Part shown: piece after piece, positions 7,780 through 34,978 of the stretch
How the letters are laid out: the number at the start of each line of letters is the position of its first letter
Position numbering within the stretch: the stretch's first letter is position 1
Program-made: the position numbers and the translations under genes
Origin: Mycoplana rhizolycopersici
GTDB taxonomy: Bacteria; Pseudomonadota; Alphaproteobacteria; Rhizobiales; Rhizobiaceae
NCBI RefSeq assembly: GCF_013378445.1
Contig: NZ_JABXYK010000017.1
Span: 1-64,000, forward strand
Reading direction: 5' to 3'
Length of the DNA stretch: 64,000 nucleotides
The notes under the pieces: model-generated
Databases searched by the model: none
Told to the model about the DNA's origin: nothing
The model's input: the letters and a program-made list of their open reading frames with translations, nothing else

Positions 7780-8556
7780 TCAGTCGTTGATCATGATCGC
7801 CGAAATCTGCCGTCCGTAGTCGGGTTCCTTGCGGTGGACGGTCCGGCGATAGGAGAAATAGTTCGCCGCTTCGGGATAGGTGCAGATGTCGAGATTTTCC
7901 GCCTTAACCCCGGCATCGGCCAGCCGCTTCAGTGTGAGCGCCGGCAGGTCGAACATGGAATGGCCGTCCCGTTCGGACCTTGAAAAGAATTCGCCGTAGC
8001 CGGGATTTGTTCCGATAAAGCGCTCGACGAACTCAGGCCCGACCTCGTAGTTGCGTCCGCTGATCGACGGGCCGAGGCAGGCGACGATGTTTTCCCGCGT
8101 CGCGCCAAGCGCTTCCATCGCATCGATGGTGTTTTCCAGTACGCCCGTAAGCGCGCCTTTCCAGCCGGCATGCGCTGCGCCGACGACGCGTGCTTCCGGG
8201 TCTGCAAAGAGGATCGGGCCGCAATCGGCGGTGAGGACGCCGATGACGAGGCCGGGGGTGGCCGTGACGAGCGCATCGGCCTGCGGACGTTCTCCGGCAT
8301 AGGTGGTGTCCACCGTGAACACGTCCGGCGAATGGACCTGGTGGACGGTGGCGAGCCGGCCGTGATCGGCGCCGAACCACCGGCCGACCCGAGTGCGGTT
8401 TTCGACGACGCTTTCACGCTCGTCGTTGGAGCCGAGTCCGACGTTCAGGCCGGCATAGATCCCTTCGGAGACGCCGCCGGCGCGGGTGAAATAGCCGTGG
8501 CGGACACTTGCGCCGGCCGCGCTTTCGATCAGGGGACTCTGGACAGGGGAAAGCAC
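7780..8556 (-). CDS. pgeF: Peptidoglycan editing factor PgeF (YfiH/laccase-domain family)
   Basis: A 258-residue cytosolic protein of the multicopper-polyphenol-oxidase-like (YfiH) family. Members are reported to remove wrongly incorporated residues from peptidoglycan precursors or to act as purine nucleoside phosphorylases. The zinc site is intact: HQVHS with His72 and His75, TADC with Cys112 and HAGWKG with His129. The C-terminal motif C-T-Y-P-E-x-x-x-Y-F-S-Y-R-R is also typical. It lies downstream of lgt and the midA-like gene on the same strand, separated from them by the palindromic element at 8666-8927, and may share their transcript. Confidence 0.92.
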   Translation of the reverse strand: MLSPVQSPLIESAAGASVRHGYFTRAGGVSEGIYAGLNVGLGSNDERESVVENRTRVGRWFGADHGRLATVHQVHSPDVFTVDTTYAGERPQADALVTATPGLVIGVLTADCGPILFADPEARVVGAAHAGWKGALTGVLENTIDAMEALGATRENIVACLGPSISGRNYEVGPEFVERFIGTNPGYGEFFSRSERDGHSMFDLPALTLKRLADAGVKAENLDICTYPEAANYFSYRRTVHRKEPDYGRQISAIMIND

Positions 8557-8665
8557 GGCATCATCCTCATCGCTTCGATGCGGCCCCGCGAACGGGACCT
8601 CTGGCGGGCTGCGGACAAGGCGGTGTCCGATTCAAATCGCGGCGATGCTGATCGCCGGGGGCAAG

Positions 8666-8927
8666 GGTCAGGACCTATTAAATTCATTCATTCTGCGTGG
8701 CGGATTTCGCGTCTGGCCAGGAGGGGAGATGCAGGAAATGCCCATCATTTTCAGATCTTTCCGACGCTGTCCAGACGCGAAATCCGTCACGCCCGAAGGG
8801 TTGGGCTGCATGAGCCGCCTGATCGAAAGCAATGCTCGACAAGGCTGAAAGCCTTGCCTTGCGCTTGCTTTCTTCCATCCAATCTCATGCAGCCGAACAG
8901 AATGAATGAATTTAATAGGTCCTGACC
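8666..8927. repeat. 262-bp nested palindromic element, copy 1 (MITE- or BIME-like)
   Basis: The element is bounded by perfect 30-bp inverted repeats at 8666-8695 and 8898-8927. Inside are two further stems: A at 8696-8716 with 8771-8791 (20 of 21 bases pair, 54-nt loop) and B at 8804-8814 with 8884-8894. Stem B encloses smaller hairpins (8825-8832 with 8865-8872; 8840-8845 with 8851-8856). Stem A starts directly where the outer stem ends, giving a three-way junction. It holds no coding capacity and no obvious target duplication. It begins 8 bp after the midA-like stop codon and lies between that gene and pgeF. Compare the element at 23294-23554. Confidence 0.85.
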
Positions 8928-8935
8928 GTAAGCTG

Positions 8936-10036
8936 TCAATCCGAAGGCCGGAACGGGGCGAGCGGCACATCGGCGCTGGCGACGGCGATCACCTTGAAGA
9001 GATCGCCCATGTTTCCGGCGCCCGATCCCGCCAGGCGCTCCACATCGGCGATGATCTGCCGTTGCAATTCCTCGTCGCGTCCGCGGCCGAGCGCGGATGC
9101 CCGGTCCGCCAGGCCGAGCCCCATGAGAAAGTCGCCCTGGTGCAGCGGGCCGTGAACGCGCAGGCCACTGTCGCGGGCAACGATCGACAGCCGTTCGAAA
9201 TCGACGTGACTGGTCAGATCCGCCTGCCCGGGATGAGCCAGCGGTGGATCGAAGGCGTGCTGAAGGACGGCCTGCAGCGTGTCGCCGAAACCGGTCACGA
9301 CGTAGCCGTAGTCGATGACGAGCGCGGCCCCCCCATGCGCGCGCAGTCGCTCGCAAATGGCCGCCATGACCGCTTCTCGCGCCGGGGCGATCTCGAAGAT
9401 CGTGCCGGGTGGCTCCGTCTTGTGCCCCTTGGGCAAAAGGTCCGGATCGATGCCCGCTGTGCCCGCGGCAAACATCAGCTCGCCGTCCGCGTCAAGCCCA
9501 ACCATGCGTTCGCGAAACCCGGTGGGAGTGCGGACGAATTGGCGGATCGGAATCGCATCGAACAGCTCGTTGGCGGCAAGCAGCAGGAAGCCGGGCGGCA
9601 CTTCGTCGAAACTGTCGTGCCAGGAGACGCGCTGCGCGTGCTTTTCCAGCGTCTTCTTCTGCACGTCTCTCAGGCGCGGGCTGGTCTCCACCAGATGGAA
9701 GGTTGCCCCGTCGTAGAGCGCCGGTGCGAGCCTCGATACGACCCGCAGCATGTCGGCCATCATCGTGCCGCGGCCGGGTCCGATCTCGGCGAAGCGCACG
9801 GCCTGCGGCGAGCCGTGGCGCTGCCAGGCGTGCACCATGAAGACGCCGAGCATCTCCCCGAAGAGCTGGCTGATTTCCGGGGCGGTGATGAAGTCGCCTT
9901 CGGTGCCGAATGGTTCGCGCGTGCGATAGTAGCCGTGTTCCGGGTCGGCCAGGCACAGGGAGAAATAATCGGTGACGCTGATCGGCCCGTTGGTGCGGAT
10001 CAGCGCCTTGATCTTCTGGGCGAGCGGGGTCGGCAT
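8936..10036 (-). CDS. SAM-dependent methyltransferase of the MidA/NDUFAF7 family
   Basis: A 366-residue protein. The N-terminus (PISVTDYFSLCLADPEHGYY) and the SAM-binding loop EIGPGRG at residues 84-90 define the DUF185/MidA family. The mitochondrial homologue NDUFAF7 methylates an arginine of a complex I subunit, so a complex I assembly role is plausible here but not shown. It starts 15 bp downstream of lgt on the same strand, an arrangement that suggests one operon. The element at 8666-8927 follows its stop codon after 8 bp. Confidence 0.9.
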   Translation of the reverse strand: MPTPLAQKIKALIRTNGPISVTDYFSLCLADPEHGYYRTREPFGTEGDFITAPEISQLFGEMLGVFMVHAWQRHGSPQAVRFAEIGPGRGTMMADMLRVVSRLAPALYDGATFHLVETSPRLRDVQKKTLEKHAQRVSWHDSFDEVPPGFLLLAANELFDAIPIRQFVRTPTGFRERMVGLDADGELMFAAGTAGIDPDLLPKGHKTEPPGTIFEIAPAREAVMAAICERLRAHGGAALVIDYGYVVTGFGDTLQAVLQHAFDPPLAHPGQADLTSHVDFERLSIVARDSGLRVHGPLHQGDFLMGLGLADRASALGRGRDEELQRQIIADVERLAGSGAGNMGDLFKVIAVASADVPLAPFRPSD

Positions 10037-23082: not shown

Positions 23083-23293
23083 GACGGATCCTCGATTGTC
23101 GGGATTGATTTGCGCTTGCGGTTAGCATTTGCCTTCAAAACAGGCAAGCGGATGCCCGGATGCGTCGTTGTTGTTCAGTATTCTTGATAGATCGCGGATG
23201 TAACTTGCTGGCGCCTTGGAGGCCCATGCCAAGTACTACAAGGGAATTCGGAGGCCGGGACGGATGCCGGCTGGAGCTGTTGGGAACCGGTTA

Positions 23294-23554
23294 TACCAAG
23301 TCTCGATGATAGGAACCGATAGGACCGGCTCGATCGGGTTTTCTGGCCAGGAGAGGTCCGCGGAGCGATGCTGTTGCATCGGTCAAGGACCTCGACGACG
23401 CCAGAAAGCCGAGAAGCCGGCCGCAGTCGGCTTATGGCTAGTCTCCGGCGTCGTTGCGACGCTTGGCCGATGCGACAGCATCGCCCTGCGCGCCGCGCCT
23501 AGTCGGCGACCAGCCATAAGCCATCCTATCGGTTCCTATCATCGAGACTTGGTA
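23294..23554. repeat. 261-bp nested palindromic element, copy 2 (MITE- or BIME-like), with a TTA duplication
   Basis: The outer inverted repeats are 31 bp and perfect (23294-23324 with 23524-23554), flanked by TTA on both sides (23291-23293 and 23555-23557). The right TTA is the complement of the sugar dehydrogenase TAA stop codon. Inside are stem A (23325-23346 with 23401-23420, imperfect, 54-nt loop) and stem B (23429-23439 with 23512-23522, perfect). A further complementarity links the two loops (23365-23387 with 23462-23484, two mismatches). Geometry matches the element at 8666-8927 within a few bases. Confidence 0.85.
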
Positions 23555-24733
23555 TTAGTGGGACGAGGGGGCGCGGTGGAGGCGCAGCAGTTGTCCGTCT
23601 TCGCCGTCCGTCAGGAGCAGTACGGAGCCGTCGGGCGCGACCTTGACATCGCGCAGCCGCCCATATTCTCCGTCGAGCAGGCGCTCTTCGCTCAAGATCT
23701 CACCGGCATCGTCGCGTTCCAGCCGTGCGAGCAACTGGTATTTCAGCGCGGCGACGAGCAGGTTGCCGTCCCATTCCGGAAACATCGCGCCGCGATAGAC
23801 GGCGATCGCGCTGGGTGCGATGGAAGGATCCCAGTAGTAGGCGGGTTGCTCGTGGCCGTCCTTCGAGGTGCCGTCACCGATCTCCGCCCCGGAATAGTGC
23901 TTTCCGTAGCTGATGATCGGCCAGCCGTAGTTCTTGCCCGGCTGCGGATAGTTTACTTCGTCGCCGCCGCGCGCGCCGTGCTCGACGGTCACGAGCGTCC
24001 CGTCTTTCGGATCGATGTCGATCCCCTGCGGGTTGCGATGGCCTTTCGACCAGATTTCCGGCAGGCCGCCATTGAGGTCGGCGTAGGGGTTGTTTCCCGG
24101 AATGGTTCCATCCGGATTGATGTGGAGAATGGATCCGGCGTGGTCGCGCGGATTTTGCGCCCGGGCCTGCTGACCCCGGTCTCCGATGCCGAGGAAGAGG
24201 CTGCCGTCGGCGGCGATCGCGATGCGGGAGCCGAAGTGCTGCCGCCGGCCGGTCAGCCGGTTCATGACGAAGATCTGCCGAACCTCTTCCAGGCTTTTCT
24301 CGTCGTCGGACAATCGGGCCCGGGCGACGGCTGTTCCGGCCCCGCCGCGTCCGGGTGCGCTGTAGGTGAGAAAGAGGATCCGGCTGGTCGAAAAGTCGCG
24401 GGCCAGTGCCACATCGAGCAGTCCGCCCTGGCCTGTGGCAGCCACGCGCGGAACGCCCCGGATCGGCTCGGAGGCCTCGCCGTTTCGCACGATGCGCAGG
24501 GCGCCGCGCTTCTCGGTGACGATATAGGCGCCGTCGGGCAGGACCTCGACCGCCCAGGGGCTGGCCAGGCCGGTTGCGACGGGCTCTACCAGCAGGCTCG
24601 CCTTCTTGCTCGGTACTTCCCGGACGTCCGCCGAGGCCGGCGCGAGCATGCACGACAGCAGCAGGAGCGACGTGCCCCAAAGGCGGCCGATCGCTGCAAG
24701 TCGTTTGCCGGGTCGGAAATCGGTAGACGTCAT
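23555..24733 (-). CDS. PQQ-dependent aldose sugar dehydrogenase-like protein
   Basis: A 392-residue exported protein: signal peptide (LWGTSLLLLSCMLAPASA) then a six-bladed propeller of the soluble glucose/sorbosone dehydrogenase family. Diagnostic motifs are GLASPWAVEVLPDG, GQGGLLDVAL, GRRQHFGSRI, GHRNPQGI and HGARGGDEVN. Such enzymes (E. coli YliI) oxidise aldoses in the periplasm using PQQ. The ATG at 24733 has AAGGAG at nine bases; an ATG eight codons upstream lacks spacing. Its stop codon coincides with the edge of the palindromic element. Confidence 0.92.
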   Translation of the reverse strand: MTSTDFRPGKRLAAIGRLWGTSLLLLSCMLAPASADVREVPSKKASLLVEPVATGLASPWAVEVLPDGAYIVTEKRGALRIVRNGEASEPIRGVPRVAATGQGGLLDVALARDFSTSRILFLTYSAPGRGGAGTAVARARLSDDEKSLEEVRQIFVMNRLTGRRQHFGSRIAIAADGSLFLGIGDRGQQARAQNPRDHAGSILHINPDGTIPGNNPYADLNGGLPEIWSKGHRNPQGIDIDPKDGTLVTVEHGARGGDEVNYPQPGKNYGWPIISYGKHYSGAEIGDGTSKDGHEQPAYYWDPSIAPSAIAVYRGAMFPEWDGNLLVAALKYQLLARLERDDAGEILSEERLLDGEYGRLRDVKVAPDGSVLLLTDGEDGQLLRLHRAPSSH

Positions 24734-24865
24734 ATGCGCTTGCTCCTTCGCTTTCATCCTAACTGCAGGGATCGGTAAGCGTTTTCAAGATGCCTTCACG
24801 AAAGGATGATTGCGGAGCGCTTGCGCTGCCCCTCGGTACCGGAAAGCGCCGAGGGCGGCATGTGT

Positions 24866-33432: not shown

Positions 33433-33550
33433 AAAAAAAAGGGGCCGCAAGCAAAAGCCAGGGCCCTGTAGGTGTGAAGGTCTGAACCTCCAGAGGGGAA
33501 CAGCCGATGCGGCGGCACTGGGAGGAAAAAACCGCCAAAACGCATCGACT
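33433..33550 (-). ncRNA. AbcR/alpha-r15-family small RNA, downstream copy
   Basis: About 118 nt on the minus strand. The 5' hairpin pairs CGATGCG and GGCGG with CCGCC and GCATCG, leaving a loop with UUCCUCCCAG, the anti-Shine-Dalgarno-like motif by which AbcR RNAs block mRNAs of ABC transporters and others. A second unpaired CUGUUCCCCUC follows. The 3' end is a GGGCC/GGCCC terminator with eight U. The core from AACCTCC to GGCACTGGGAGGAAAA is shared with the neighbouring copy. Position between arsR and lsrB matches AbcR1/AbcR2 in Sinorhizobium. Which of the two it is cannot be decided here. Confidence 0.85.
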
Positions 33551-33649: not shown

Positions 33650-33768
33650 AAAAAAAGAGGGCCACAAGATGAACTTGGGCCCTTTATAGTTTTGAAGGTA
33701 AAAACCTCCAGAGGGGAACAGCTGCTGCGGGTGGCACTGGGAGGAAAACCACCGCAAATGCATCAGCT
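33650..33768 (-). ncRNA. AbcR/alpha-r15-family small RNA, upstream copy
   Basis: About 119 nt on the minus strand, in tandem with the copy at 33433-33550. Its 5' hairpin (AGCTG and GCGGTGG with CCACCCGC and CAGCT) exposes UUUUCCUCCCAGUG. CUGUUCCCCUCUGGAGG follows, and the end is an AGGGCC/GGCCCT terminator with seven U (complement of 33650-33656). Stems differ from the first copy by compensating changes while the loop is conserved, as expected for duplicated Hfq-dependent trans-acting RNAs. It lies downstream of lsrB and is read in the same direction. Confidence 0.85.
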
Positions 33769-34081: not shown

Positions 34082-34978
34082 TCAGAAGTTCCAGTTGCGC
34101 GCTTTCGAGACGATGAAGTCGCGGAAGACCTTGAGCTTCGCGGCATTCTTCATCTCGTGCGGATAGCAGAAATAGGTATCGAACGACGGCACGTCGGCAT
34201 TCGTCACCAGCTGCAGCAGGCCCGGATCGCGGCCGACGATGTAGTCCGGCAGCATGGCGATGCCGATGCCGAGCAGGCAGGCCCGCTTGATCGAGGTCAG
34301 GCTGTTGATCTGCAGGACGGAGGGGCGGGGGTTGTCCGAATCGCGCCCGGCGATCTGCAGCCAGTTGACGTCGAGCAGGTAGTTCGGCGCCGGCTCGCCG
34401 AAGGTGATGATCTTGTGGTGGTCGAGGTCGTCGATCGACTGCGGCTCGCCGTAGCGGTTGATGTAGGAGGGCGCGGCATAGACGTGCATGTGCACGGTGA
34501 AGAGCTTGCGCTGGATGAGGTCGGACTGCTGCGGCTCGCGCAGGCGGATGGCGCAGTCGGCGTGGCGCATGTTGACGTCCAGTTCCTCGTTGTCGAGGAT
34601 CAGCTGGACCTGCATGTCCGGATAAAGGGCCAGGAATTCCTGGACCTTGTCTGTGAGCCACCCCTGGCCGAGGCCGACGGTCGTGGTAATGCGCAGCTTG
34701 CCGCTTGGCTTTTCCGTCGTCTCGGTCAGCTGGACGCGGACACTCTCGAGCTTCATCAGCACGTCGTGGGCGGTGCGATAGAGGATTTCGCCCTGTTCGG
34801 TCAGGATCAGCCCGCGGGCATGCCGATGGAACAGCTTGATGCCGACATCCTGCTCCAGCGCGCTGACCTGGCGGCTGATGGCGGATTGCGACAGGTGAAG
34901 CTTGTCCGCTGCGTGTGTGAACGAACCGGCCTCGGCTGCGGCATGAAATATCCGCAGCTTGTCCCAGTCGAGCGCCAT
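34082..34978 (-). CDS. lsrB: LysR-type regulator LsrB
   Basis: A 298-residue LysR protein: N-terminal HTH (AGSFTHAADKLHLSQSAISRQVSALEQDVGIKLFHR) and an effector domain. Cysteines are at 142, 234 and 271; LsrB of Sinorhizobium meliloti is described as a redox-responsive regulator needed for symbiosis, glutathione synthesis and LPS, so they may be sensors. The ATG at 34978 follows GGGGGA. The neighbours (trxB upstream, AbcR-like sRNAs and ArsR downstream) match the lsrB locus, which supports the name. Confidence 0.85.
   Translation of the reverse strand: MALDWDKLRIFHAAAEAGSFTHAADKLHLSQSAISRQVSALEQDVGIKLFHRHARGLILTEQGEILYRTAHDVLMKLESVRVQLTETTEKPSGKLRITTTVGLGQGWLTDKVQEFLALYPDMQVQLILDNEELDVNMRHADCAIRLREPQQSDLIQRKLFTVHMHVYAAPSYINRYGEPQSIDDLDHHKIITFGEPAPNYLLDVNWLQIAGRDSDNPRPSVLQINSLTSIKRACLLGIGIAMLPDYIVGRDPGLLQLVTNADVPSFDTYFCYPHEMKNAAKLKVFRDFIVSKARNWNF

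Follow-up and report, generated by a model that had tools for sequence, protein, structure and literature searches.

The two long palindromes in the window, i.e. the stretch of 64,000 nucleotides from Mycoplana rhizolycopersici that was analysed, are likely to be non-autonomous elements of one superfamily that are mobilised in trans by IS5-family transposases and that keep the shape of their hairpins while the letters of the stems change, a pattern suggestive of a function for the fold. In the mechanism that we propose, the terminal inverted repeats of about 30 bp would serve as the transposition signal and would be recognised in trans by IS5-family DDE transposases; element 1 has ends resembling those of the IS427 group, and element 2 would depend on a transposase with a TNA target, a partner that is so far hypothetical. 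Insertion would take place at sites that are centred on TA or have the form TNA, stop codons being among them. The two inward-facing hairpin modules between the ends, A and B, probably once formed an inverted pair, of which the shape and some internal-loop letters would be kept while the stem letters change. The hairpins may be maintained as a folded single strand, where we place the RNA of a read-through transcript slightly ahead of DNA.

Both palindromes described in the earlier note are real and their outer stems are perfect, with 30 bp in element 1 and 32 bp in element 2 (Table 1). The placement of element 2 at 23294-23554 with arms of 31 bp is exact if TTA is taken as the duplicated target: the palindrome as such extends from 23293 to 23555, one base further at either end, and these two bases are part of the target copies. 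The inner hairpins A and B were recovered in both elements. The supposed equality of the stem A loops at 54 nt was not, as loop length follows from the choice of stem boundary (46 and 52 nt lie between the arms in our analysis); likewise, the supposedly identical offsets for the right arm of stem B are soft as an exact equality, since the arms cover different offsets. Both elements do lie 3' of a minus-strand gene and between co-directional genes. The folding z-scores were -15.7, -16.6, -15.2 and -13.9 (both elements, both strands), and for each fold none of 200 dinucleotide shuffles was as stable; for the plus strand of element 2, the minimum-energy fold was a single long hairpin and the Y shape appeared in the centroid only. 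The shared sequence TCTGGCCAGGAG was found as described, starting at 8712 in element 1 and at 23342 in element 2, and is the longest substring common to both. Common substrings of 12 nt, at any offset, occurred in 3 of 400 pairs of dinucleotide shuffles, none of these 3 lying within 2 of the same offset; the offsets of TCTGGCCAGGAG in the two elements differ by 3 if element 2 is counted from 23293 and by 2 if it is counted from 23294. In an Rfam search of the window and 20 further loci, no element match reached the gathering score, and permissive thresholds added nothing but matches far short of it, the best score being 30.5 bits (cut-off 90) for hairpin B of locus L093 against a microRNA family. 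The window also carries two tandem ar15 sRNA genes on the minus strand (33436-33550 and 33653-33768; Rfam RF02345, 92.5 and 99.6 bits). A small ORF in hairpin A of element 1 (SD-like AGGAGG followed by ATG) was discarded, as neither its start codon nor its frame is kept in relatives.

Table 1 Coordinates of the two elements and their surroundings in the window. R1 is the covariance model of hairpin A.
Feature	Position	Strand	Remarks
Element 1	8666..8927	+	262 bp; between two minus-strand genes
Element 1, left terminal inverted repeat	8666..8695		IS5-family-like end GGTCAGGACC
Element 1, right terminal inverted repeat	8898..8927		Perfect complement of the left one
Element 1, outer stem	8666-8695/8898-8927		30 bp, 100% paired
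Element 1, hairpin A	8696..8791	+	Conserved internal-loop letters: AGGAG opposite GACGC; GCA opposite AA
Element 1, inner stem arms of A	8695-8720/8767-8792
Element 1, central mini-hairpin CCC-nnn-GGG	8792..8800	+	Centre of two-fold symmetry
Element 1, hairpin B	8800..8898	+
Element 1, inner stem arms of B	8800-8814/8884-8898
Element 1, left flank CAAG	8662..8665		Probably decayed target-site copy; relatives mostly have YTAR there
Element 1, right flank GTAA	8928..8931		Probably decayed target-site copy
PF02636 methyltransferase gene, neighbour of element 1	8936-10036	-
PF02578 gene, neighbour of element 1	7780-8556	-
Element 2	23294..23554	+	261 bp between TTA copies; same superfamily, different ends (TACCAAG...CTTGGTA)
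Element 2, outer stem	23293-23324/23524-23555		32 bp, 100% paired
Element 2, hairpin A	23325..23432	+	R1 match, 30.9 bits
Element 2, inner stem arms of A	23337-23347/23400-23410
Element 2, second hairpin	23414..23523	-	A-type module reversed; R1 match, 38.3 bits
Element 2, inner stem arms of B	23429-23447/23504-23522
Element 2, left target-site copy TTA	23291..23293
Element 2, right target-site copy TTA	23555..23557		Doubles as stop codon of the minus-strand GSDH gene 23555-24757

The idea that these are mobile palindromic elements was borne out by empty sites and, at one locus, by target duplication. The site of element 1 is empty in all six other genomes of the genus that were searched, the joined flanks matching contiguously, and alignment with the empty site in one of them, G006 (95% identity), gave 266 extra bases in the window's genome, i.e. 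262 + 4; element 1 either inserted once the two lineages had separated or has disappeared from that of G006. At the locus of a sister copy of element 2, the joined flanks are contiguous in five genomes of the genus and are split by a copy in G000 (the window's genome) and in G006. The junction, readable in three of the five empty loci (L227, L229 and L230), is ..TTATC, compared to TTA/TACC...GGTA/TTATC in G000 (slashes mark the ends of the element), and the target is thus duplicated at this one locus. Elsewhere in the window's genome, a second full copy of element 1 is present (89% identity), and element 2 is found at eight further places, as one full copy (92%), two copies of 160 bp, one of 140 bp, two of 59 bp and two truncated ones. 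The 3 bases outside TACC...GGTA, read by eye, are identical on both sides in 7/7 two-ended copies of this genome, element 2 included (TTA, TTA, TAA, TAA, TCA, TCA and TGA). In other genomes, the TNA copies match in two of the seven two-ended elements of the element 2 end class and mostly differ, and those flanking two copies in G006 (L034 and L035) do not match. Most relatives of element 1 have YTAR on both sides, in many cases CTAG; the flanks of element 1 itself do not match each other. A clean 4-bp duplication of CTAG was rejected because many copies have TTAG/CTAG or CTAA, and a 2-bp duplication of TA inside YTAR fits equally well.

The distinct elements were obtained from 209 matches to R1, from which antisense, second-module and repeated matches were left out by hand. 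A terminal inverted repeat was present, by a threshold of our own, in 119 of the 136 matches retained and examined (17 were without), and removal of 10 with the same flanks as another left 109 distinct elements, of which 95 are 260-279 bp long. The elements are short, have terminal inverted repeats and no transposase gene, and come with empty sites and, at one locus, target duplication, as MITEs do; both palindromes are, judging from these sequence features, MITE-like, non-autonomous insertion elements that were apparently moved in trans. The locus L010 (G000:C5:255100-255259) shares its insertion site with L034 of the other species (G006:C43:319090-319353), where the element is full-length; the copy in the window's genome has one hairpin left, and an entire hairpin can thus be lost without the element leaving its site. 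Two elements on Rhodobacterales plasmids (L104, 2502-2704, and L105, 2502-2853) have the same ends and hairpin A with a different or longer second half, and L066 has two opposite-facing hairpin A matches about 165 bp apart, i.e. an element with extra DNA beside or inside another copy.

The relatives of element 1 have ends, TAGGGTCAGGACCCATTAAT, that match those of insertion sequences of the IS5 family. A matching left end lies 65 bases before an annotated IS5 transposase gene in Paracoccus yeei, and both ends were found in four of five further IS copies that were inspected, with the ends CTAGGCTCCAGACCCATTGAT (ISPaes2-type) and CTAGGGTCAGGACCCATTGAT; the two reading frames of the IS copies have DUF4096 and DDE_Tnp_1 domains. 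One copy carries the name ISPaes2 in its record, an IS which PMC3281130 gives as a member of the IS427 group, its direct repeat being 2 bp long. The relatives of element 1 thus resemble the IS427 group of the IS5 family in that their ends (TAGGGTCAGGACCCATTRAT) match the inspected IS ends and their target is TA-centred, but the IS are about 850 bp long with a transposase gene, and no match to the models of hairpin A or B was obtained up to E 1 in eight IS loci. An IS5-family relic with the ends CTAGGGTCCGGACCCA and GAGCCCGGACCCTAA, close to those of element 1, is present in the window's genome (L244, G000:C24, ~40.5-41.2 kb); immediately beyond one of its ends lies TCTTGCCAGGAGAGG, a near-copy of the motif that the two palindromes share. 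No IS with the TACCAAG ends of element 2 was seen in a thin search that covered the end sequence against plasmids, where matches were not inspected for IS genes, and four loci of the own genome. From the ends, the target and the empty sites we infer transposition in trans.

For the hairpins, two covariance models were built from the relatives of element 1, R1 for hairpin A and R2 for hairpin B. The stems of the two elements, which the earlier note had called unrelated, do look so, but R1 matched both hairpins of element 2 (E 9.3e-8 and 8.6e-6), and therefore the two elements are related. By itself, the R1 score proves kinship only weakly: hairpin A of element 1 reaches 38.7 bits on its opposite strand, too. 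As a control, the opposite strands of the element 2 hairpins, which have the same stems, were absent among 34 R1 matches up to E 5, and in the R1 alignments of element 2 the loop letters AGG, CAA and ACG are in place. In the relatives L096, L218 and L196, the second hairpin is a reversed A-type module, which gives the element the appearance of two modules in inverted orientation on either side of CCC-nnn-GGG; in element 1, the reverse complement of hairpin B matched R1 weakly (E 0.012), the corresponding match being clear in several relatives.

The superfamily is widespread. Counting the window's genome each time, matches were obtained in 22 of 297 genomes of the family by DNA search, in 23 of 297 genomes of the order with R2, and in 31 of 387 genomes of the class (25 of 264 genera) with R1, the class being Alphaproteobacteria, judging from the relatives that have names. 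Of the 397 genomes of the phylum searched with R1, 29 had a match, 12 of them outside the class; the one of these 12 that was inspected (L237 in G1058) has a two-hairpin element keeping GCAGGAAATG...TTTTCAAG...AACGC, and the core is therefore not confined to the class of the window. The core sits between several types of ends, namely GGTCAGGACC, GGTCATGAACTC, TACCAAG, TAGAGCC, GGTCGTGGTGAGG, AGAACC and others. An R1 match in the window at 34351-34459 (19.4 bits) was taken as chance, the sequence looking coding by eye, and exact-pattern matches in Treponema, Chitinophaga and the like, which had no R1 or R2 match, were left out of the count of relatives.

The earlier note had expected a family of one architecture with changed but still paired stems; the covariance-model search and covariation test which it proposed gave many further copies and strong covariation, and the contrary outcomes it had named were absent. 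Of its two options, a structured element or a mobile palindrome, each is upheld. In hairpin A (107 sequences), 93.1% of the cells are paired compared to 66.7% in shuffled alignments, and 40 of 41 pairs changed on both sides, with a covariation score of 0.687 versus 0.196 (shuffled) and at most 0.110 (slid). In hairpin B (96 sequences), the paired cells amount to 91.7% versus 74.8%, and both sides changed in 29 of 33 pairs (score 0.426 versus 0.117 shuffled and at most 0.078 slid). These alignments were fitted to the model structures and include 2 and 8 antisense self-matches, respectively; a plain, unfitted MAFFT alignment of 20 relatives, with compensatory changes in 63 of 97 consensus pairs, agrees with them.

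What keeps the hairpins paired is a separate question, on which the kinds of exchange in the stems bear. If the acting strand is RNA, changes from Watson-Crick pairs to G-U are expected to outnumber those to A-C. For this count and for that of conservation, the antisense self-matches were dropped, leaving 105 and 88 sequences in the conservation count. The ratio of G-U to A-C changes was 71:30 in hairpin A (p 5.5e-5; 37 independent sequence pairs) and 22:37 in hairpin B (p 0.067; independent sequence pairs). With strand-neutral pairing, hairpin A gave 75:33 at thresholds of 0.5 and 0.6 and 42:33 at 0.7, and hairpin B 29:38, 29:36 and 28:27 at 0.5, 0.6 and 0.7, respectively. The excess of G-U in hairpin A is thus not significant at 0.7, nor when the Watson-Crick columns are chosen more strictly (36:22 at 75%, p 0.087; 22:20 at 85%), and hairpin B has no such excess or the reverse; RNA-level selection on hairpin A is suggested rather than shown by this threshold-dependent excess. 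A model of RNA acting from one strand, favoured by the first G-U counts, was given up as the minus-strand control was opposite for hairpin B and the later tests depended on the threshold, and there is no support for a single long transcript with both hairpins on it.

The hairpins could instead be DNA signals, i.e. single-stranded DNA or cruciforms folded for the transposition or replication of the element, which we regard as somewhat unlikely. The mirror symmetry of the two modules around the centre would fit a two-ended DNA complex, and hairpins A and B give contrary strand signals when the structures of both strands are pooled; yet neither R1 nor R2 matched any of the eight IS5-family loci whose ends match, the same core is found between several types of ends, and the 59-bp copies (on C9 and C14), which consist of the two terminal arms without hairpins, lie at two sites whose target copies differ (TCA and TGA). 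Since IS copies with the same ends lack the hairpins and arm-only copies lie at separate sites, the hairpins are probably dispensable for movement, with the caveat that the C9 and C14 copies could have lost theirs after insertion.

Quasi-palindromes are known to undergo arm-to-arm correction by template switching. Such correction during replication would keep stems paired without any selection on the fold, and it is the principal sceptical reading, if an unlikely source of the pattern seen here; the outer arms speak for it in being near-perfect whatever their sequence and in that their imperfect cells are strand-symmetric (98 elements; 80 G-U versus 83 A-C cells). The mean conservation of unpaired columns also does not exceed that of paired ones (0.68 versus 0.69 in A and 0.72 versus 0.79 in B). 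Correction would not keep unpaired letters, however, and 6 unpaired columns in hairpin A (105 sequences) and 15 in hairpin B (88 sequences) are at least 90% conserved.

With the elements taken as trans-mobilised passengers of one superfamily, a further and quite doubtful proposal is that the hairpins are an RNA cargo common to non-autonomous transposons with different ends, which may bind a conserved host factor (candidates would be RNA polymerase, the ribosome or an RNase) and make the insertion harmless to an operon, in the manner of put-type antitermination RNA. Given the two-fold symmetry of the element, transcription from either side would first produce an inward-facing A-type hairpin. 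Element 1 separates two co-directional genes that are contiguous in relatives, and these may need read-through.

The position relative to genes was compared with control sites, genes being ORFs picked by length, so that the figures are rough. Among intergenic sites of the same loci, a stop end lies within 120 bp of 65/109 elements, 39/69 CTAG sites and 154/331 YTAR sites, and a stop lies at the site itself in 34/109, 16/69 and 54/331 cases, respectively. A position after stop codons, for which the earlier note had proposed a test, was therefore found in mild excess over intergenic YTAR sites (p 0.02 within 120 bp, p 0.001 at the site) but not over intergenic CTAG sites (p 0.76 and p 0.31). Against unrestricted controls, gene ends within 120 bp were in clear excess (92/109 elements versus 360/533 YTAR and 83/116 CTAG sites), as is expected if insertions in genes are purged, and stops at the site were not clearly more frequent (0.358 for elements, 0.285 for YTAR, 0.353 for CTAG). 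Gene ends were found on the left side only in 21/109 and on the right side only in 36/109 elements (p 0.06). A 3'-UTR element of host genes, acting as terminator or mRNA stabiliser, is improbable and such a role, which the earlier note had considered, is not supported: the folds are stable, a target copy of element 2 is a stop codon, and gene ends lie near many copies, but proximity to stop ends is no greater than at intergenic CTAG sites, both tested positions are empty in other species of the genus, and no intrinsic terminator was found at element 1 or inside element 2, the one terminator-like site lying outside element 2.

Several described families of repeats are similar in part. RIME, Sm repeats and ABC motifs have a size near 110 bp. 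They are rhizobial, intergenic and palindromic with conserved secondary structure (Osteras 1995, as named in PMC2573895), and were compared by description only. Caulobacter and Brucella have CIR elements (Chen and Shapiro 2003; described in PMC2229807 and PMC10969869), which are likewise alphaproteobacterial and intergenic, with two arms joined by a linker and TA at the termini. According to these descriptions, CIR are about 110 bp long, have no terminal inverted repeat and carry a conserved GANTC in the loop, in contrast to the present elements of about 265 bp with 30-bp terminal repeats. GANTC is absent from elements 1 and 2, occurs at all in 36 of the 109 elements and is not enriched in these (1.55 per kb versus 1.37 per kb in the flanks). 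CIR are, by these descriptions, the nearest relatives in shape, but two of their defining features, GANTC and the absence of terminal repeats, fail here. MITE-like repeats that have their ends in common with a resident IS are already known, e.g. the short R0 and R2 repeats of Pseudomonas fluorescens, which according to PMC2718517 are 89 and 110 bp long with one stem and a variable core as loop; in contrast, the present elements have a conserved two-hairpin core common to different ends. No description of this core was found in a literature search of open-licence papers, most subscription papers and ISfinder lying outside it.

Free drift is what one usually assumes for the core of a bacterial MITE. 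The core with two hairpins described here has retained its shape and part of its loop letters in many genera of one class and in some other Pseudomonadota, and several sets of transposon ends carry it. Either a useful module of RNA or DNA is shared among mobile elements, or the correction of palindromes can mimic RNA covariation on a grand scale; both readings bear on the use of covariation as proof of RNA function, and the covariance models R1 and R2 make both of them testable.
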